NCBI RefSeq assembly: GCF_002899715.1
Contig: NZ_PPEK01000001.1
Coordinates: 434,001-498,000 of the forward strand
DNA length: 64,000 nt
Direction of reading: 5' to 3'
Source of the DNA: Enteroscipio rubneri
Lineage (GTDB): Bacteria; Actinomycetota; Coriobacteriia; Coriobacteriales; Eggerthellaceae
Each line of letters opens with the position of its first letter. The stretch's first letter is position 1. The position numbers and the translations under genes are program-made. The notes beneath the pieces were generated by a model. The model saw only the letters and a list, made by a program, of their open reading frames with translations. It was not told the DNA's origin and made no database searches. Positions 12,743-29,940 of the stretch are shown piece by piece.

Positions 12743-15265
12743 ATGTCGGAAACCAAGAGCCCGCGCACGGGGCTCACGCGCAGAGGCTTCCTGAAAACGA
12801 CCGGCGCGCTCGCGGGCGCAGCGGCGGTTGCGGGCACGACGCCAACGCTCACTGCGCTGGCTGAAACGCCCGATGCCGACGCAGCCGAGGAGCAGGTGTT
12901 CTACAGCACGTGCGGAGGCAACTGCGGCGGTCCAACCTGCCGCATGAAAGGCATCGTGCGCGAGGGAAAGCTCGTACAGGTCAAGCCTGCGGACATCGAC
13001 CCTGAACATCCAACGTTCAGAACCGGCTGCGTCAAGGGCCAGACGAATCCGCAGCGCCTCTACAGCCCGAAGCGCAATCTCTACCCTTTGAAGCGTGTTG
13101 GAGAGCGCGGCGCAGGCCAGTGGGAACGTATCTCGTGGGACGAAGCCATAACCACCATCGCCGATGCCATGAAATCATCCCAGGAGCAATATGGGGATTC
13201 TTCGGTTGCGTTTTGGCACAGTTATGTCGGCGGGAGCAGCGTCCTGAATTTTGCAACCTCGAGCTGCACTCCCGAGGGTACGCGCACCGGTTCGTCCGTC
13301 TCGCTCGAGCGGTTCATCCAGAAAACGGGAGCAACGGTAATGACCCCCGCAGCTGATAAGACGTTGCAATGGGCGTTGGCTTCCATTCCCGGGCTGGCCA
13401 AATTCGCGCCACAGAGCGAACTTGTGAAAGCGCAGACGATCATGATTTGGGGTTCCAATCCTACCGGTGCATCTCGCTCCCATCAGAATTTTCTTCGCAA
13501 GGCGAAGGAGAACGGATCCAAGATCGTAACTATCGATCCTTTGGTCAGGTTGAATGCGGTGCAATCGGATCTCTACCTGCCGGTGCGTCCGGCGACTGAC
13601 GGCTTCTTGGCGTTGGCCATGTGCAACTGGATTGTCGACCACGAGCTGGTGGACTGGGAATTTCTTCGGGATAGCACCGTCGCCCCGATTCTGCGCAAAG
13701 AGGACGGGACGTACTTGCGGCTATCGGATCTGGGCATGGCCCCCGAAGAGGGCCCTGTCGATCCTAAGACGGGCAAGTCGACGACCCTTGACACCGAGGT
13801 GGTGTACGACGAGGAGAATATGACGTTTGGCTCCATCAACAAGGTTGCGCACCCTGCCGTGCTTGGCTCCTATGAAGCGAACGGCCTCAAAGTGCGCACG
13901 GTGCTCGATTACGTGCTCGAGAATATCAAGGAGTACACAGTCGAGAAGGCCGCCGAGGTGTGCGACGTCCCGGCGTGGAAGATCGAGGAGGTCGCGCGCC
14001 TGTATGCAACCGAAAAACCCGCAACCATCGATATGTGGGAAGGCCTCGACCACCGGCATAACTCGCGCCACAACTACAAAGACCTTATGCTCCTTGCCTG
14101 CCTGACCGGAAACTACGATAAGCCTGGTTCGTTCATCGTGTGCCAGCATCTCCTCGAAGGCGAGGATGGCGGAGATGCCATAGGCGGAACAACCGACACA
14201 AGCAAGCTCATCCAAGTTGATGGTGCTAAGAAGTCCCTGCATATGACAGGCATGTATCTTCATGAGGTGATGGAAAAGGGAAAACTGGGTTCGACGGAGC
14301 TTCTTCTCAAAGTGGTGTATTGCTTCCAGGCGAATCCACTGGCTGCCGACTGTGGGCCGCGCGAGCTCAAGGCGGCCATCGATAAGCTCGATCTCTTCGT
14401 CGTGGCCGATCCTTATATGTCGGACACGGCGCGTTGGGCCGATATCGTGCTGCCCATCGCTATGATGTGGGAGAAGGAAGACGCTACCGGTGGTTTCACC
14501 CTGCTCGAGAAAGGCGTCGAACCGCCGGGAGAATGCAAGGCCGACATGGACGTGTTCCGTATGCTCGCCGACAAGATGGGCTTTCCCGACCTATACGACA
14601 AGACCGATGAGGAGTACCTGCGCGAAGCGCTCGATACCCCCTTCAACAAGGCAAACGGCTTCACCTACGACGACTACAAGGAAAAGGGCTTTATCGTCAA
14701 GTTCGCCGACCAGATGGAAGCGGCGGCATCGAATGCCGCGGCGGCTGCGACCCCGAAGATCCGCAACTCGTTCTATATCGAGAACCCGCGGTCGGTCGAC
14801 TTGAACGAGCCTGAGGTCGATCGCGAGATCGAAAGCCGGCCATACTGGGAGGAGCCGCTCGAGACGAGCGTAAACAATCCGGCATTTCAGAAATATCCGC
14901 TATTTGCCTTTAGCATCCACGAGATATACCACGCACAATCCATCCTTCTCGAGGTTCCCTGGCTTGATGAGCTGCGGCCTGAGCCCAAGATCGAGATTCA
15001 CGAAGATGCAGCAGCTGCACGTGGCATCAAGCAAGGCGATTTGATCAAGGCGTATAACGATCGCGGCTTCGTGGTGTGCAAGGCGGTCGTCACCAAGGGC
15101 ATACGACCCGACTGCATTCTTCTTCCGCACGGTTGGCAGACTGACGACTTCGTAGCCGGGCATCTAACGGATCTCACGCGCATCGACATGGACGGGTTTT
15201 CGGGGAACAGCTGTTACAACGAGATCCTTTGCGAAGTCGAGTTGTACGACGGAGGTGCTGAATAA
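12743..15265 (+). CDS. Tat-exported molybdopterin oxidoreductase, DMSO-reductase family catalytic subunit
   Basis: An 840-residue protein with a twin-arginine signal (TRRGFLKTTGALAGAAA, about residues 10-30), so it folds in the cytosol and acts outside the membrane. Near the mature N-terminus Cys57, Cys61, Cys66 and Cys96 bind a 4Fe-4S cluster. The remainder has the domains of the DMSO-reductase family: IMIWGSNPTGAS and FVVADPYMSDTARWADIVLP in the bis-MGD core, and a C-terminal dinucleotide-binding domain with IEIHEDAAAARGIKQGDLIK. The molybdenum ligand and substrate could not be assigned. The stop overlaps the ferredoxin start (TAATG). Context makes it a membrane-bound reductase or dehydrogenase with DmsB- and NrfD-like partners. 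In Eggerthella such enzymes reduce or dehydroxylate host and dietary compounds. Confidence 0.92.
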   Translation: MSETKSPRTGLTRRGFLKTTGALAGAAAVAGTTPTLTALAETPDADAAEEQVFYSTCGGNCGGPTCRMKGIVREGKLVQVKPADIDPEHPTFRTGCVKGQTNPQRLYSPKRNLYPLKRVGERGAGQWERISWDEAITTIADAMKSSQEQYGDSSVAFWHSYVGGSSVLNFATSSCTPEGTRTGSSVSLERFIQKTGATVMTPAADKTLQWALASIPGLAKFAPQSELVKAQTIMIWGSNPTGASRSHQNFLRKAKENGSKIVTIDPLVRLNAVQSDLYLPVRPATDGFLALAMCNWIVDHELVDWEFLRDSTVAPILRKEDGTYLRLSDLGMAPEEGPVDPKTGKSTTLDTEVVYDEENMTFGSINKVAHPAVLGSYEANGLKVRTVLDYVLENIKEYTVEKAAEVCDVPAWKIEEVARLYATEKPATIDMWEGLDHRHNSRHNYKDLMLLACLTGNYDKPGSFIVCQHLLEGEDGGDAIGGTTDTSKLIQVDGAKKSLHMTGMYLHEVMEKGKLGSTELLLKVVYCFQANPLAADCGPRELKAAIDKLDLFVVADPYMSDTARWADIVLPIAMMWEKEDATGGFTLLEKGVEPPGECKADMDVFRMLADKMGFPDLYDKTDEEYLREALDTPFNKANGFTYDDYKEKGFIVKFADQMEAAASNAAAAATPKIRNSFYIENPRSVDLNEPEVDREIESRPYWEEPLETSVNNPAFQKYPLFAFSIHEIYHAQSILLEVPWLDELRPEPKIEIHEDAAAARGIKQGDLIKAYNDRGFVVCKAVVTKGIRPDCILLPHGWQTDDFVAGHLTDLTRIDMDGFSGNSCYNEILCEVELYDGGAE

Positions 15266-15891
15266 TGACGCGGTATGGATTCGTCATCGACACGACGCGC
15301 TGCGTGGGATGCAACTTCTGCTCGATGGCATGCAAGGTGGAGAACAATCTTCCCGAGGATGTTTGGTGGAGCCGTGCCTACACCGACGGCGGCGAGGTGG
15401 AGCAGACGCCCTCGGGCGAATGGCCCGACAATCTGCATATGGCGTTCATGACCGTGGGCTGTCAGCACTGCGACAACCCGGCCTGTGTGAAGGCGTGCCC
15501 GGTGGGAGCCACGTACAAAGACGCCGACACGGGCATCGTGCGCCAGGACTTCGACAAGTGCATCGGGTGCCGCATGTGCATGGCGGCCTGCCCCTACTCG
15601 GGCGTGCGCACGTTCAACTGGGAGGAGCCGAAGTACTTCCTCGACTTCCCGGTGGGCAGCGCCGATGCGCCGAAGCACCAGAAGGGCGTGGTGGAGAAGT
15701 GCACCATGTGCTGGCACCGCATCGCCAAGGGCGAGCGGCCTGCCTGCGCCGACGTGTGCCGGACGCTGGCGCGGCATTGGGGCGACTTCGACGACCCCGA
15801 TTCCGAGGTGTCCAAGCTCATCCGCGACCGCCCGTACAAGCAGCTGCTGGCCGACGAGGGCACCGGCCCCTGCGTGTACTACCTCGTCTAG
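15265..15891 (+). CDS. Four-cluster ferredoxin-type electron transfer subunit (DmsB/NrfC-like)
   Basis: A 208-residue protein with four cysteine groups: CVGCNFCSMAC, CQHCDNPACVKACP, CIGCRMCMAACP, and CTMCWHR with the later CADVC. Together these can bind four 4Fe-4S clusters, the number expected in DmsB-type subunits. It passes electrons between the molybdenum subunit and the NrfD membrane subunit. There is no signal peptide, so it is likely exported with the Tat-signal-bearing catalytic subunit. The ATG overlaps the stop of that gene. The NrfD gene follows 18 bases downstream with GAAGAAGGAG in the gap. Confidence 0.93.
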   Translation: MTRYGFVIDTTRCVGCNFCSMACKVENNLPEDVWWSRAYTDGGEVEQTPSGEWPDNLHMAFMTVGCQHCDNPACVKACPVGATYKDADTGIVRQDFDKCIGCRMCMAACPYSGVRTFNWEEPKYFLDFPVGSADAPKHQKGVVEKCTMCWHRIAKGERPACADVCRTLARHWGDFDDPDSEVSKLIRDRPYKQLLADEGTGPCVYYLV

Positions 15892-15909: not shown

Positions 15910-17139
15910 ATGTCTGAAAACGTTACGGCGGCGAAGGCCGCCAAGGCTCCTGCTGCCACATTCGGGGGCAGAGGGCTCACGATAGGCATCGCGGCGGCTG
16001 CAGCGGTCACCATTGTCGGCCTCGTGCTGTGGGGCATGCAGCTGGCGGGCGGCTTCATGGACACCGCCATGCGGGACTTCGCCCCCTGGGGCATCAACAT
16101 CGCCCTGTTCATGTTCTTCGTGGGGCTCTCGGTAGGCAGCATGGTGGTGGCCGCTTCGCCTCGCGCGTTCGGCTTCGAGAGCTTCGGCGGCATCGCGAAG
16201 ATGGCCGCATGGGTTCCCATCTGCAGCACGGTGCTCGCCATCGGCTTCGTCGTGGTGGACCTCGGCCAGCCCCTGCGCCTGTGGGAGCTGTTCGCTTATT
16301 CCAACCTCAGCTCGCCGCTCATGTGGGACATCATCGTGCTCTCGGTGTACCTGATCCTGTCCGTCGTGTACCTGTGGACGCTGCTGCGTGCCGAGAAGCG
16401 GCAGGCCAGCGCGAAGGCGCTGCGCATCGTGTCGGCGGTCGTGCTTTTGTGGGCGCTCGTCGTGTGCGCGGTCGACGGCTGGATCTTCGGCCTCATGCCG
16501 AGCCGCGCCCTGTGGAACACGGCGCTGCTGGCGCCGTGGTTCGTGTCCTCGGCATTGGCGAGCGGCGCGGCCCTCGTGCTGGTGCTGGCCATCGCGCTGC
16601 GCCGCACGGGCTACGTGGATGTCCGCGAGGAGCATGTCGCGAGGCTGGCGAAGCTTCTGGGGGCGTTCGTGTGCGTGGACCTGTTCTTCTTCGCGTGCGA
16701 CCTTGTCACCGAAGGGTTCCCGGGGGGTTCCGGCGCGGGCATCGTCGGCATGCTGGTCGCGGGACAGCTGGCGCCGTTCTTCTGGATCCAGATCGTCGGC
16801 TGCGCGCTGGCCGCCGTGGTGTGCTTCGTGCCGAAGCTGCGCACGAGCCCGCTGCTCGTTGCAGCCGGCCTGCTGACGGTCGCGGGCGTGTTCTGCAAGC
16901 GCATGCAGCTGGTCGTGGGCGGCTTCCAGGTTCCCTCGCTCGACTATGCCACGTTCGTCACCCCCTTCACCGTGACGAGCGATTGGGGCGTCGGTCTGGC
17001 CGGCGCCTACGAGGGCATGGTCTACGCGCCCACGCTTCCCGAGGTCGGGCTCGCTCTCGGCGTGCTGTCGCTCGGCGTGCTCCTCGTGCTCGTGGGCCTG
17101 AAGTTCCTGCCGCTCTCGTCGGTTCAGGGCGCCAACTAG
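15910..17139 (+). CDS. NrfD-family quinol-interacting membrane subunit
   Basis: A 409-residue protein with about ten transmembrane helices. Landmarks are FAPWGINIALFMFFVGLSVG near residues 55-75 and VVVDLGQPLRLWELFAYSNL near 115-135, both typical of NrfD/PsrC proteins. It should anchor the ferredoxin subunit and exchange electrons with menaquinone. It lies third in the operon; 72 bases separate it from the small CX4CH protein. The shorter NrfD-like protein at 9569-10522 is a distant relative only. Confidence 0.9.
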   Translation: MSENVTAAKAAKAPAATFGGRGLTIGIAAAAAVTIVGLVLWGMQLAGGFMDTAMRDFAPWGINIALFMFFVGLSVGSMVVAASPRAFGFESFGGIAKMAAWVPICSTVLAIGFVVVDLGQPLRLWELFAYSNLSSPLMWDIIVLSVYLILSVVYLWTLLRAEKRQASAKALRIVSAVVLLWALVVCAVDGWIFGLMPSRALWNTALLAPWFVSSALASGAALVLVLAIALRRTGYVDVREEHVARLAKLLGAFVCVDLFFFACDLVTEGFPGGSGAGIVGMLVAGQLAPFFWIQIVGCALAAVVCFVPKLRTSPLLVAAGLLTVAGVFCKRMQLVVGGFQVPSLDYATFVTPFTVTSDWGVGLAGAYEGMVYAPTLPEVGLALGVLSLGVLLVLVGLKFLPLSSVQGAN

Positions 17140-17211: not shown

Positions 17212-17571
17212 ATGATGAAGAAAACCCTTGTGACGGTCCTCGCGTTCCTGGTCGTGGGCGCGTGCGTGCTCCTCGCGGGCGTCGTTGCCGATCCGTCGGC
17301 GGGCCTGCCGAAGCCCATCGAGGCCGGCTCCCCCTGTCCGGCGGCAGGCTGCGCTTCGGGGTCGTGCCACGGGTTCGACGACGTGCCCGAGCCGGACGGC
17401 GTCCATGAGATGACGTGTCCCGAGGCAGCGTGCGCGAGCGTGGAATGCCATGCCTGGGACACGCTGACCACGCGCTACTATCAGCCCTCAGAAGCCAGCA
17501 TGAACGTGTGGCTGCTTTTGCCCGTGGCGCTGGTGGTCGGCCTCGTGCTGCTTGTGAAGAAGGTGAAGTAG
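17212..17571 (+). CDS. Small bitopic protein with two CX4CH motifs, candidate c-type haem protein
   Basis: A 119-residue protein with a hydrophobic helix at each end (about 4-25 and 98-115) and an exposed middle. The middle carries two similar blocks: CPAAGCASGSCH and CPEAACASVECH. Each ends in CX4CH, a variant haem c attachment motif known from some tetrahaem cytochromes, and each has an additional Cys five residues before it. It lies between the NrfD gene and a DUF4405 b-type cytochrome gene, whose start follows its stop directly. It could pass electrons to or from that cytochrome, or bind metal. No close family is recognised. ATG at 17212 (or 17215) follows AAGGAAGG. Confidence 0.7.
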   Translation: MMKKTLVTVLAFLVVGACVLLAGVVADPSAGLPKPIEAGSPCPAAGCASGSCHGFDDVPEPDGVHEMTCPEAACASVECHAWDTLTTRYYQPSEASMNVWLLLPVALVVGLVLLVKKVK

Positions 17572-18054
17572 ATGGACGGGAAGCGCCTTGTCGTCGACGT
17601 GGTCGCCCTCGCCGTGTATGCCCTGGTGGCGAACCCCGCCTGGACGGGGATCGGCCTGCACGAATGGGCGAGCCTCGGGCTGTTCGTCGTATTCATAGTC
17701 CATTGCGCGATGCACGTCGATTGGGTCGTCGAGACCTTCGCAGGCCTCGTTCGGCGCCCGTCGCCCGCGCGGACGGGCAATCTCGTTCTCGATGCGCTGA
17801 CGCTGGCCGCTTTGATGACGACGGCGGTTTCGGGGATCCTCGTGTCGGGAGCGGTGCTGCCGGCTCTGGGGCTGTATGCCGACGGATACTACTTCTGGGA
17901 TCCTCTCCATGCGATCTCCGCGAAGGTGCTTCTCGCGCTGCTGCTGGTCCACGTGGTGGCGCACTGGAAATGGCTGTACAATTTCCTTCGAGGGGGCAAG
18001 GCGAGCGCGGTTCGCGCAGCGCGAGAGGCGGGGGAGGCCGATGAACGCGGCTAG
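17572..18054 (+). CDS. DUF4405-type four-helix membrane protein, probable b-type cytochrome
   Basis: A 160-residue protein with four hydrophobic helices. Histidines lie where a b-haem protein needs them: HEWASLGLFVVFIVHCAMHV in the second helix and LHAISAKVLLALLLVHVVAH in the fourth. This is the DUF4405/FrdC-like pattern, often found next to molybdenum or multihaem oxidoreductases. It starts immediately after the stop of the CX4CH gene and overlaps the radical SAM gene by 14 bases, so the three are tightly coupled. It likely carries electrons across the membrane between quinone and the CX4CH protein. Haem content is inferred. Confidence 0.75.
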   Translation: MDGKRLVVDVVALAVYALVANPAWTGIGLHEWASLGLFVVFIVHCAMHVDWVVETFAGLVRRPSPARTGNLVLDALTLAALMTTAVSGILVSGAVLPALGLYADGYYFWDPLHAISAKVLLALLLVHVVAHWKWLYNFLRGGKASAVRAAREAGEADERG

Positions 18055-20020
18055 GTTGCTGGAGGAGCGCCCGACGCTTCGGGCATGGCTCGAGGAGTAC
18101 GGCGCGATCGAGCGCGAGTACCTCGACGGGTTGCGGGCGACGGGCGTCGACTTCCCCCCGGCCTACGCCGACGAGGAGAGCGTCCGGGCGGCGCGGCGCC
18201 GCCTGCGCGACAAGGGCGCGACGTTTCGCAACGGCGGCGCGAGCATCGTGGCCGGCAGGCTCTCATCGGCGTGCGAAGCGTGCTCGAACGACCTCGGCAG
18301 CAAGACGTTCGCGCTGTCCTTGCAGTGCAACCGCGACTGCTACTTCTGCTTCAACAAGAACCAGCGGTCCGACGACCAGGCGTGTTCGTCGACGGGAGGC
18401 TGGCGCGACGAGGTGGACGCCTTCGCCGAGGAGTGCGGCGGCGTCACCCACGTCGGGCTGACGGGCGGCGAGCCTTTGCTGCATCGCCGGGAAGCCGTGA
18501 AGTTCGTGCGCTACGTCCACACGCGGCATCCGGGCGCGCATGTGCGCCTCTACACGGCGGGCGATTTCCTGGACGAGGAGGTGCTCTCCGAGCTGCGCGA
18601 TGCCGGCTTGCGGGAGCTTCGCATGAGCGTGAAGCTGGACGTGCGCGATCTCGAATCCGCCGTCGAGATCATCGACGGCGCCGTGGGAAAGCTCGCGCTG
18701 GCGAAGCGCTTCGTCCCCGACGTGATGGTTGAGATGCCTGCCATTCCCGGCACCGACGACGCGATGCGGCGGCTGCTCGCACGGCTCGACGAGATCGGCG
18801 CGTTCGGCATCAACCTGCTCGAGTTCGGCTACCCGATGCACGATTGGGAGGCATTCGGCTCCCGCGGGTTCGAGGTGCGCAATCCGCCGTTCCCCGTGGC
18901 CTACGACTACAGCTATCCCGGCGGCCTGCCCATCGCGGGAAGCGAGCTTCTGTGCCTCGAGCTGCTGGAGTTCGCGCTCGACGAGGGGCTGTCGCTCGGG
19001 GTGCATTACTGTTCGCTGGAGAACAAGAACCGCGGGCAGGTGTATCGGCAGAATGCCGTCGTGCGGCTCGACGAGAGGCTGTTCGAGCTGGATGGCGAGG
19101 ACTTCTTCTACAAGGCCGCGAAGGTGTTCGATGGGGACGCGGCACGCGTCGGCGAGCGCTTCGTCGCCTTGGGGGTGCCCTACGAACGGGACGAGCAGGA
19201 CGGAAGCCTCCTCTTCCATCCTGACGGCTTGGGGGCGATCGGCGATCTTCCCGTGCTGCCGGCGTTGTCGTACAACGTGATTGAGCGCACCGCCGACGGG
19301 TGCGCCGTCCGCGAATTGAAGCTCGAAGTGGCTGAAAGGGGCCTTGACATGGGAAACGAAGCAATCTGGGGCGCACGCGCGACGGCCTGGGAGCTGCTCG
19401 CGCTTACGTTCCGCTATCCGGACGAGGTCCTGGCCCAGGCCGTCTCGTCCGGCGAATGGGCCGAGGCCGCGGAGGAGGTGGCCGCTGCTCTGAGCCTCCG
19501 CCTGCCGGAGGGCTGGGGAGAGGGGCCCGGCGGATGCGCCGGGCGCGGGGACGCGTCCCGCTCCTCGGCCGAGGCGCTTCTGCACGACCTGCGCGTCGAG
19601 GCTACGCGCCTGTTCGTGGGCGCGCCCGAGCCTGCGGTATCGCCCTATGAGGGCGTGTGGCGCGCGGTCGACGACGGGGTTCAGCCGCTTTTGTTCGTGA
19701 ACCCGCATTCCATGGACGTCGAGCGCTTCATGCGCGCATGCGGGCTCGGTCGGCCGGAAGGCACGAACGACCCGCTCGACCGCGTGGATGCCGAGTGCGA
19801 GCTGCTTGAGCACCTGGCCCTGCGCGTCGCTGGCGCCGAGCCTCCCGAGGGCGCGCCCGCCGACGCCGATCTGCCCGGCGGCTCGCCCGAGGCGGCCTAC
19901 GACGAGTTCCTCCAGGAGCACGCCCGCGTCTGGCTGCCCCGCTTCGCGAAGCGCGTGGCCAAGGAGGCCCGCGAGCCCCTCTACCGCGACGCCGCCGCCT
20001 ACCTGGGGGCGATGTGCTGA
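18041..20020 (+). CDS. Radical SAM protein fused to a TorD/NarJ-type chaperone domain
   Basis: A 659-residue protein. The N-terminal half contains the radical SAM signature CNRDCYFC (CX3CX2C near residue 96) and LTGGEPLLH, followed by a partial TIM barrel to about 400. From residue 437 the sequence is a TorD-like helical domain (AIWGARATAWELLALTFRYP, SPYEGVWR, VNPHSMDVERFMRA). TorD proteins bind Tat signals and help insert molybdenum cofactor. An ATG at 19349 with GAAAGGGG upstream could also start the chaperone separately. The start ATG at 18041 follows GGGGGAGG. As last gene of the operon it likely matures the Mo subunit at 12743. What the radical SAM half modifies is unknown. Confidence 0.85.
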   Translation: MNAARLLEERPTLRAWLEEYGAIEREYLDGLRATGVDFPPAYADEESVRAARRRLRDKGATFRNGGASIVAGRLSSACEACSNDLGSKTFALSLQCNRDCYFCFNKNQRSDDQACSSTGGWRDEVDAFAEECGGVTHVGLTGGEPLLHRREAVKFVRYVHTRHPGAHVRLYTAGDFLDEEVLSELRDAGLRELRMSVKLDVRDLESAVEIIDGAVGKLALAKRFVPDVMVEMPAIPGTDDAMRRLLARLDEIGAFGINLLEFGYPMHDWEAFGSRGFEVRNPPFPVAYDYSYPGGLPIAGSELLCLELLEFALDEGLSLGVHYCSLENKNRGQVYRQNAVVRLDERLFELDGEDFFYKAAKVFDGDAARVGERFVALGVPYERDEQDGSLLFHPDGLGAIGDLPVLPALSYNVIERTADGCAVRELKLEVAERGLDMGNEAIWGARATAWELLALTFRYPDEVLAQAVSSGEWAEAAEEVAAALSLRLPEGWGEGPGGCAGRGDASRSSAEALLHDLRVEATRLFVGAPEPAVSPYEGVWRAVDDGVQPLLFVNPHSMDVERFMRACGLGRPEGTNDPLDRVDAECELLEHLALRVAGAEPPEGAPADADLPGGSPEAAYDEFLQEHARVWLPRFAKRVAKEAREPLYRDAAAYLGAMC

Positions 20021-20106: not shown

Positions 20107-20146
20107 CAGTGTCGAATAGGAAGCAGTGGAGCCAAGGAGGTGCGCC

Positions 20147-20464
20147 ATGGCGGCGGTGGCAACATTGAACGTGCGCTTGCCCGAAGATCTCAAGGAGCGG
20201 GGCATGCAGGTTCTCGAGCGGGAGGGCGTGAGCGCCTCCGAGCTCATTCGCGACCTGTTTCGCGAGCTGGGGGAAACCCAACAGCTTCCCGACTTCGCGC
20301 GCGTGCGCGCGTGTGATCGAGGTGAGGCTGAGGCCAAGCGCGCCGCCCTGCGCGAGTTCGTTTGCCTCGGCCGCAGCTTCGAGGGTAACGATGCGTTCGA
20401 TGACACGCGGAACGCCTATCGCGAGCACCTGCTTCGGAAACATCGCCCAGGAGTGCGCGTATGA
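20147..20464 (+). CDS. Ribbon-helix-helix antitoxin
   Basis: A 105-residue protein. The N-terminus VATLNVRLPEDLKERGMQVL followed by SASELIRDLFREL is the RHH/RelB-DinJ DNA-binding pattern. The C-terminal half is charged and would wrap around the toxin. The start ATG at 20147 follows AAGGAGG. Its stop overlaps the PIN toxin start (ATGA), the standard arrangement for co-translated antitoxin-toxin pairs. It probably represses the operon through the 20075-20106 palindrome. Confidence 0.88.
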   Translation: MAAVATLNVRLPEDLKERGMQVLEREGVSASELIRDLFRELGETQQLPDFARVRACDRGEAEAKRAALREFVCLGRSFEGNDAFDDTRNAYREHLLRKHRPGVRV

Positions 20465-20916
20465 ACGTCCTCTTCGATACGAACGTCATCATCGACCTGT
20501 GGGATTCGTCCGAGGATTTCGAAAGCTCGTTTCAGGCGGTTGACATCGCGCTTCATCGCGGATTCGGGGCATGCATCACCACGCCCATGGCCCCTTCCAT
20601 TGTATATTTGCTCTCGGCGCGCAAGATCATGTCGAAGCGGGAGGCCCATGCGGCGTTCGGCAAGATCATGGACATGTTCGAGCTGCTCGACGTGACTGCG
20701 ACGGACTGTCGGCTGGCGCATGAAAAGGGCAAGGGAGATTTCGAGGACGACCTCATCGCCTGGGCCGCCTATCGCCACGGCGTCGACTTCATTGTGACGC
20801 GCAACAAACGGGATTTCGCGAAATCTCCCGTTCCCGCGCTCGCCCCGCAGGAGTTCGCGGATATCTACCGGCCCCACGATCTCGAATACGAAACGATCGA
20901 CTGGCCTGAAACGTGA
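20461..20916 (+). CDS. PIN-domain toxin (VapC-like ribonuclease)
   Basis: A 151-residue protein with the PIN-domain acidic residues: the N-terminal MNVLFDTNVIIDLW, the central GDFEDDLIAWAA, and the later FIVTRNKRDF. These acidic residues bind metal ions and cut RNA. It is coupled to the RHH antitoxin gene. Such modules act in stress growth arrest or plasmid/locus maintenance. The RNA target is unknown. The 156 bases to the next gene contain a small hairpin (CGCGCATG and CATGCGCG around 20941-20960). Confidence 0.88.
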   Translation: MNVLFDTNVIIDLWDSSEDFESSFQAVDIALHRGFGACITTPMAPSIVYLLSARKIMSKREAHAAFGKIMDMFELLDVTATDCRLAHEKGKGDFEDDLIAWAAYRHGVDFIVTRNKRDFAKSPVPALAPQEFADIYRPHDLEYETIDWPET

Positions 20917-21072
20917 GGGCTTGCCATCTAGCTTGGCCGACGCGCATGTCGTCATGCGCGAAACGCTTCGGTAAACGAATCGACGCGCATCTTTAACGTT
21001 CCGGAAAGCACGGCGAAAAGCCGGCCGGCTACGATGATTTCGAACCGGAAGCTTTCAAACGAAGGAGATGCG

Positions 21073-21550
21073 ATGTACGAGATGCCGAAACTTGAGGAGA
21101 GCTTGACGCGGCGGGGGTTCATGCGGGGCGCGGCGCTGGCTGCGGCGGCGGTGGGCGTCGCCGGGCTTGCAGGCTGCCAGTCGGCGGGTGCTGCCGAGGG
21201 CGATGCGACCGACGGTGCTTCCGGCGGCTATGTGGGGCAACCCCAGCTGACGCCGTACGTCGAACCGCGCATGATTGCCATCGAAGATGCGCAGGTGCAA
21301 GTGAAGAACGTGCTGGTGGTTGTGGACTACCAGGTTGACTTCGTCGACGGTTCGCTGGGTAGAAACGAACGCGCCATCGGACTTCAAGACGCCATCTGCG
21401 ATCGCATCAAGCAGTATCAGGATAATGGCGACTACGTGTTCTACACCATGGATACGCATCCGAGCGAAAACTACTCCCTCACTCGCGAGGGCGGCACTTC
21501 GGTTGCGAAGGGGGCATCAAGAGCGTGCCGCTGTACGCGGCGTTCTGCAT
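21073..21550 (+). pseudogene. 3'-truncated Tat-exported nicotinamidase/isochorismatase-like gene
   Basis: ATG at 21073 follows GAAGGAG. The N-terminus has a twin-arginine signal (LTRRGFMRGAALAAAAVGVA) ending in a lipobox-like LAGC. A hydrolase start follows: VLVVVDYQVDFVDGSLGRNE with the catalytic Asp, then YVFYTMDTHPSENYSLTREG. Similarity ends near 21495, before the Lys and Cys of the catalytic triad. The frame then runs to 21906 through a duplicated segment and palindromic DNA, giving a Ser/Arg/Pro-rich tail that is not protein-like. The gene was cut at the boundary of the 53-bp repeat. Confidence 0.75.
21495..21547. repeat. Second copy of the 53-bp segment at 12381-12433
   Basis: Six mismatches separate this copy from the one at 12381-12433. 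It begins at the point where the nicotinamidase-like gene loses homology. In a plus-strand frame different from that gene it encodes GGIKSVPLYAAFCIC and a stop, which looks like the end of a lost gene. A deletion joining two genes at this point would explain the layout. Confidence 0.65.
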
Positions 21551-21680
21551 CTGTTAGCACGGCTCCGCAAAAGGCGAGCGCAGCGATGCCGCCCCCCCCC
21601 GGGACGGACGGGCGAAGCCCCGCCGCCGAAGGCGGCGCATCGGCCCCGCATGCGATTCGCGGGTTTTCCATCAAGCATGA

Positions 21681-21796
21681 GGCCGTCGCACGCGCCGAAG
21701 GGTCCGGCGCGAGTTCCGCACGAGCCGGAACGCCCAGCGGGCGTTCCGTGCGAGCAGGACTGCAGAGCGCCGGACCCTTCGGCGCGTGCGACGGCC
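21681..21796. repeat. Extragenic nested palindrome upstream of rpoB (30-bp perfect arms)
   Basis: Arms at 21681-21710 and 21767-21796 are exact reverse complements over 30 bases. Inside lies a second hairpin, CGGAACGCCC (21726-21735) with GGGCGTTCCG (21739-21748). The internal 17 bases GCGAGTTCCGCACGAGC (21709-21725) recur inverted at 30066-30082 after rpoC, next to another small hairpin. This looks like a family of repetitive extragenic palindromes. A C-run at 21592-21600 and a small GC hairpin near 21621 precede it. No gene is seen in 21551-21987. Confidence 0.8.
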
Positions 21797-21902
21797 GTCC
21801 CGCAGGTCCGAAACCCCCTCCGCAACCAAAAATTTTCCGCCTCATCGTCCCAGCTAAACACAAGAATCAACAGCAAATCCCCACAGTTCGTAAAAATTTT
21901 TC

Positions 21903-21931
21903 TTGACTTGGCTCCGCTCCGCGTGTATTTT
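21903..21931 (+). promoter_or_regulatory. Sigma-70-type promoter of rpoBC
   Basis: TTGACT (21903-21908) and TATTTT (21926-21931) are separated by exactly 17 bases, close to the housekeeping consensus. Transcription would start near 21938, giving a leader of about 50 bases before the GTG of rpoB. It lies in the only AT-rich patch before rpoB, downstream of the palindromic element. No ribosomal protein genes precede rpoB, so this promoter probably drives rpoBC alone. Confidence 0.75.

Positions 21932-21987: not shown

Positions 21988-29940
<7,953 letters not shown>

Follow-up and report, generated by a model that had tools for sequence, protein, structure and literature searches.

A radical SAM enzyme fused to a TorD-type chaperone in a molybdoenzyme operon of Enteroscipio rubneri: a putative enzyme-specific maturation factor

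Introduction

As currently understood, molybdenum (Mo) enzymes of the DMSO reductase family reach their mature form with no more than cofactor assembly, the help of a chaperone and, for exported members, transport by the Tat system. TorD-type chaperones bind the leaders of Mo enzymes. Chaperones of exported molybdoenzymes in general assist cofactor insertion (PMC6650914). Radical SAM maturases of respiratory enzymes are already known in kind. For example, QhpD, an operon-borne radical SAM enzyme of Arcobacter and Paracoccus, has been proposed to build the cofactor carried by one subunit of a respiratory enzyme (PMC2147049), and the radical SAM protein of family TIGR04317 is a further, proposed case. 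No description of a radical SAM-TorD pairing was found in a limited search of the open-access literature; in one open-access paper that mentions both, they have no connection with each other.

The DNA analysed here, called the window, is a 64,000-nucleotide stretch of the Enteroscipio rubneri genome. An initial annotation of this stretch reported a radical SAM enzyme fused to a TorD chaperone and suggested a radical SAM modification linked to the maturation of a Mo enzyme.

The operon and the fused gene

The fused gene is the last of an operon for a Tat-exported Mo enzyme of the DMSO reductase family. The Mo subunit is followed by an Fe-S subunit, an NrfD-like protein, a small Cys-rich protein, a DUF4405 cytochrome-b-like protein and, overlapping the DUF4405 gene by 14 nt, the radical SAM-TorD protein (Table 1). 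The twin arginines at residues 13-14 of the Mo subunit are kept in its radical SAM-linked homologues. Homologous operons vary: the radical SAM enzyme and TorD may be separate genes, the radical SAM gene may occupy another position, or it may be missing.

Table 1. Features of the operon and of the fused gene (window positions).
Feature	Position	Strand	Basis
Mo catalytic subunit, DMSO reductase superfamily, Tat leader (TRRGFLK)	12743..15265	+	Pfam Molybdopterin and Molydop_binding
Fe-S electron-transfer subunit, DsrO/DmsB-like	15265..15891	+	NCBIfam DsrO, 180.5 bits, slightly below the cut-off of 200
NrfD/DsrP-like membrane subunit	15910..17139	+	Pfam NrfD, 134 bits
Small membrane protein, two CPxxxCxSxxCH repeats	17212..17571	+	Repeats conserved in 19 homologues
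DUF4405/cytochrome b561-like membrane protein	17572..18054	+	Pfam DUF4405, 45.7 bits
Radical SAM domain, residues 1-430	18041..19330	+	Pfam, motif conservation, AlphaFold model
CxxC, C78 and C81, candidate auxiliary cluster ligands	18272..18283	+	Invariant in 34 homologues
CX3CX2C radical SAM cluster motif, C96/C100/C103 (residues 96-103)	18326..18349	+	Invariant in 34 homologues
GGEP motif, residues 142-145	18464..18475	+	Invariant in 34 homologues
C324 within HYCSxxNK motif	19010..19012	+	Invariant in 34 homologues
GAAAGGGG, remnant or active ribosome-binding site of TorD, 7 nt upstream of ATG 19349	19334..19341	+	Anti-SD pairing
AGG (R433); this column is TGA in Eggerthella sinensis and TGG in G023	19337..19339	+	Codon alignment
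TorD/NarJ-type chaperone domain; ATG at 19349 (Met437) is the ancestral separate start	19349..20020	+	Pfam and codon alignment of the junction

The small protein has no family match in Pfam or NCBIfam. A predicted membrane segment lies at either end (judged by eye), and its repeats (CX4CH) are strictly conserved in the 19 homologues, which nearly always adjoin DUF4405 and are also present in operons lacking the radical SAM gene. Possibly, it is an unusual c-type cytochrome. Directly downstream of the operon (20126-20916), a gene resembling RelB/ribbon-helix-helix antitoxins and, after it, a PIN-domain gene form a VapBC-type toxin-antitoxin pair. Next comes an apparently truncated Tat-leader protein (21034-21906), which starts like an isochorismatase-type hydrolase and continues in unrelated low-complexity sequence, just upstream of large reading frames at 21988 and 25525 (rpoB/rpoC-like, judged by eye).

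The fusion reported in the initial annotation is borne out. Positions 18041-20020 of the forward strand form a single frame of 659 amino acids with no internal stop. The Radical_SAM domain of Pfam is matched by residues 95-242 (51.8 bits, cut-off 29.5), which places the first half in that superfamily, and Nitrate_red_del (TorD/NarJ, PF02613) by residues 488-636 (65.9 bits, cut-off 22.2), which places the second half in that family. The CX3CX2C and GGEP motifs, described as intact, are indeed so, and the chaperone half does begin at residue 437, as proposed. In the AlphaFold model, built with 79 sequences, two folded units are separated by a low-confidence linker. The pLDDT exceeds 90 across most of residues 1-430 and falls below 50 in the disordered linker (residues 434-448). 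The TorD part is all-helical (helices 437-658) and of moderate to low confidence (pLDDT 35-89 per 10-residue block).

An unnamed radical SAM family

Besides the two motifs, G35, N64, C78, C81, Y290/Y292, C324 and other residues are invariant in the 34 homologues. Compared with SPASM/twitch enzymes, only the CxxC preceding the core and C324 following it are invariant, and the typical SPASM set of cysteines is absent; C78, C81 and C324 may bind one auxiliary cluster. Among the NCBIfam equivalogs, the window protein lies far below every cut-off for HxsC, MoaA, PqqE, viperin and W_rSAM_matur, and the Providencia and Neobacillus members do not reach any equivalog cut-off either. Searches against solved structures returned generic radical SAM matches only, with NifB and viperin among the best. 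By sequence, the radical SAM half falls in an unnamed family marked by an invariant CxxC, a CX3CX2C and one later Cys. The TorD half falls short of both TorD sensu stricto (NF003442, 24.6 of 132 bits) and the DMSO_red_II chaperone (TIGR03482, 47 of 152.3 bits).

Distribution and gene neighbours

The radical SAM family was found in Actinomycetota, Bacillota, Chloroflexota and Pseudomonadota; within a sample of 396 genomes spread across Actinomycetota, it is confined to the family to which the window belongs. Of the 53 well-covered loci, in which 5 kb or more of sequence flanks the radical SAM gene on either side, 44 encode a Mo subunit or TorD no more than 10 kb from it (Actinomycetota 13/20, Bacillota 13/15, Chloroflexota 8/8, Pseudomonadota 10/10). 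The other nine lack both. In Providencia, Morganella, Entomohabitans and the Bacillus group, the unfused radical SAM gene stands directly upstream of TorD, followed by the Mo and Fe-S subunits and, at loci with inspected gene lists, by a DmsC-like protein. Since this unfused pair adjoins Mo enzymes in several phyla, a previously undescribed radical-chemistry step in the maturation of some Mo enzymes is suggested. A plasmid search with a Providencia homologue gave no match.

The link is not universal, because a Coriobacteriia subgroup of the family stands alone, away from Mo genes. Conversely, two related Mo operons (L066 and L068) have no radical SAM gene. Next to one stand-alone member, in a Coriobacteriaceae locus (L092:11260-12928), a possible DnaJ-domain protein (slightly below cut-off) and a MoaF-family protein are encoded.

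A ferredoxin with several 4Fe-4S sites joins the radical SAM loci of the Bacillus group, Entomohabitans and Chloroflexota; such proteins lie near unfused radical SAM-TorD genes at L138:16058-16975, L135:9081-9971 and L097:8622-9965. This multi-cluster ferredoxin may supply the radical SAM enzyme with electrons. In six Bacillus-group loci (L134, L136, L138, L148, L149 and L150), two Mo enzymes flank one radical SAM gene, since next to the radical SAM-TorD-Mo genes the other strand encodes another, divergent Mo subunit (~680 aa) and its Fe-S protein.

Co-divergence with the Mo subunit

In 28 Actinomycetota operons, the distances between radical SAM proteins follow those between the adjoining Mo subunits (Mantel r = 0.88, p < 0.001) nearly as closely as the Mo subunits follow their own Fe-S subunits (r = 0.90). 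Over all 51 operons, the respective values are 0.78 and 0.90. Because most of these 28 operons belong to one order and divergent paralogues are among them, common species history is unlikely to explain the correlation by itself. Joint operon inheritance is part of the cause, and operons inherited as units could also account for the co-divergence.

In the window's genome, 19 Mo-family (PF01568) hits stand alongside a single member of the radical SAM family, and other genomes carry several divergent radical SAM paralogues. For these reasons the enzyme looks specific to one client, unlike a general cofactor biosynthesis enzyme. Together with the tracking in the 28 operons, the single copy per 19 hits favours a factor dedicated to its own enzyme. 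Furthermore, among 60 relatives, presence of the radical SAM gene goes with at least five Mo proteins (25:1 vs. 21:13, Fisher p = 0.002).

As the family adjoins Mo/TorD genes in four phyla and tracks the Mo subunit, a role in the maturation of a particular Mo enzyme is well supported by gene context, independently of the fusion. The link to Mo-enzyme maturation suggested by the initial annotation is thus supported by loci in which the two genes are separate (the unfused radical SAM-TorD-Mo operons of Pseudomonadota and Bacillota, besides the linkage in four phyla). Both known fusions lie in Mo operons, so the finding that the annotation named as a refutation, the same fusion away from Mo enzymes, did not turn up.

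Proposed function

In the proposed mechanism, the TorD half would meet the apo-Mo subunit in the cytoplasm and bind its Tat leader and folded core, like TorD/DmsD proteins. The radical SAM half, kept beside the bound client, would use a 5'-deoxyadenosyl radical for a modification that this enzyme needs, most likely on the Mo subunit polypeptide and ahead of cofactor closure and export. We infer that TorD acts as the substrate tether; the polypeptide is our best guess for the target, with the cofactor as second choice. The two intact domains joined by a flexible linker, the Tat-leader Mo subunit in the same operon and the recurrent unfused gene order all agree with a maturation factor in two parts that serves only the Mo enzyme encoded alongside it and whose radical SAM half modifies the TorD-held subunit before export. 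Given the stand-alone Coriobacteriia members, the operons lacking the gene, the alternative source of co-divergence and the diversity of the Mo subunits described below, we give this reading an even chance. The broader proposal, namely that a widespread, undescribed radical SAM class installs a post-translational modification in particular DMSO-reductase-family enzymes, with TorD presenting the substrate and both partners fused in two bacteria, is plausible but falls somewhat short of that.

Origin of the fusion

The full-length fusion occurs in 2 of 138 genomes of the window's family: the window's own and a second one (G023), whose protein is 59% identical. The closest homologue of the window protein, in Eggerthella sinensis DSM 16107 (L032/L071; 68% identity), is encoded by split genes in the same operon. 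A codon alignment gives RELKLE-V-A-E-AGG-G-L-D-ATG for the window, RELKIE-P-W-G-TGG-E-K-G-ATG for G023 and RELKLE-T-T-R-TGA-G-A-A-ATG for Eggerthella sinensis. Frame and length are identical in all three, a single codon column being either stop or sense, and the 7-codon spacing is present in the split gene too. In another genome (G096), the two genes are adjacent and out of frame. Among the 396 genomes across the phylum, the window's fusion is the only one, and samples from two other groups (399 and 296 genomes), in which the radical SAM family is rare, contained no long fused frame.

From these counts and alignments, the fusion is a rare, derived state, apparently born when the stop codon between two adjacent co-translated genes vanished. 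On the radical SAM tree, the window groups with Eggerthella sinensis (100/100) and G023 with another group (96/95). A single fused clade is disfavoured (p-AU 0.022), which is moderate evidence, the pair having been chosen by fusion and not from the tree. As the two fusions sit on different branches, two independent stop losses are most likely; one older fusion with later splits is less likely. The fusion seen in the initial annotation is real, whereas the idea that it defines an architecture finds no support: it is found twice in 138 genomes, by stop loss and apparently on separate occasions.

The same data bear on whether the tether matters at all. The fusion may be incidental, a stop loss between genes that tolerate joining, the halves working as if apart and internal starts perhaps still yielding free TorD. 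Its rarity, its two branches, the preserved spacing with one deciding codon and the start signals kept at the junction all suit this explanation, while the apparent repetition at the same junction is a hint that the tether does no harm and may even bring some benefit. This is a serious contender, if a little less than an even prospect, and is compatible with the role proposed above for the radical SAM half.

The internal ATG highlighted in the initial annotation is the old TorD start; a separate TorD product is only plausible. The pairing of GAAAGGGG with the anti-SD (-6.3 kcal/mol) falls within the range of the window's real starts (-4.2 to -13.1), but 13.6% of in-frame internal ATGs pair equally well; the signal alone is short of significance, and the site cannot be taken as a proven second start. 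Because the ATG and the purine-rich stretch survive in both fusions, free TorD may be made in addition to the fused protein.

Target of the radical SAM half

In a comparison of 47 radical SAM-linked and 37 unlinked Mo subunits, the best separating columns (N60, H726 and PHG at 795-797) were rejected as targets, as they follow subfamily and have exceptions in both groups. The linked subunits are also diverse around the Mo ligand, and a common target residue is therefore not evident.

This diversity fits a shared cofactor better than a shared residue. The radical SAM half might modify the cofactor (bis-MGD or a bound Fe-S cluster) or supply an atom to it, with TorD presenting an apo-enzyme whose protein stays unmodified. 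Chaperones of this kind assist cofactor insertion (PMC6650914), and MoaA and NifB offer precedents, NifB and viperin being among the best structural matches. However, such an enzyme would be expected once per genome, serving many enzymes, in contrast to one radical SAM gene for 19 Mo-family hits, divergent paralogues and close tracking of the Mo subunit. A cofactor target is rather unlikely.

Many radical SAM enzymes form thioether links in Cys-rich peptides, and one of the operon's products, the small membrane protein with its two CPxxxCxSxxCH repeats, is rich in Cys. This protein, another operon product (the Fe-S subunit, NrfD or the b-type cytochrome) or a small molecule could be the target; the radical SAM protein tracks the Fe-S subunit too (r = 0.83). 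On the other hand, the small protein and DUF4405 are present in the operons without the radical SAM gene (L066, L068), and the radical SAM gene occurs without both, including outside Actinomycetota. The small protein is thereby ruled out as an obligate substrate. The recurrent partners are the Mo subunit and TorD, which makes this alternative quite improbable.

Finally, a stop codon lost through sequencing or assembly error is very hard to credit: although the window's genome gives a single base-level view, there is no stop or frameshift near the junction, TGA and AGG differ by two substitutions, and G023 is fused at the same junction.

Significance and comparison with known systems

If the maturation role holds, an enzyme-specific radical SAM partner would be an added maturation step, which might help explain the difficulty of producing some gut Mo enzymes in standard hosts. 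It would also indicate that enzymes of anaerobes from the gut and the environment contain a modified residue or cofactor. The fusion identifies both partners and offers a direct handle for testing.

The closest relatives of this system are the unfused radical SAM-TorD-DmsA-DmsB-DmsC-like operons of Providencia, Morganella and the Bacillus group. Their radical SAM proteins belong to the same family (~40-44% identity to the window's), with TorD directly downstream and the Mo subunit next. They differ in having two genes, partly overlapping or adjacent, a DmsA-type Mo subunit, and neither an NrfD of the window's type nor a small Cys protein or DUF4405. The TorD/DmsD/NarJ chaperones (PF02613) resemble the C-terminal half and likewise serve an operon with a Tat-leader Mo enzyme; those described are free-standing, whereas the window's shares a polypeptide with a radical SAM enzyme. 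QhpD, the maturase of quinohemoprotein amine dehydrogenase, is similar by analogy and has no TorD; its client and Cys pattern differ from those of the window protein. The tungsten cofactor oxidoreductase maturase (TIGR04317) is likewise a radical SAM protein, with a pterin-based metalloenzyme as its proposed client, but the window protein, at 24 bits against a cut-off of 380, is not a member. MoaA (GTP 3',8-cyclase) is also distant (39 bits against cut-offs of 284-325), and, in contrast to it, the family described here is linked to single enzymes, not to cofactor genes.
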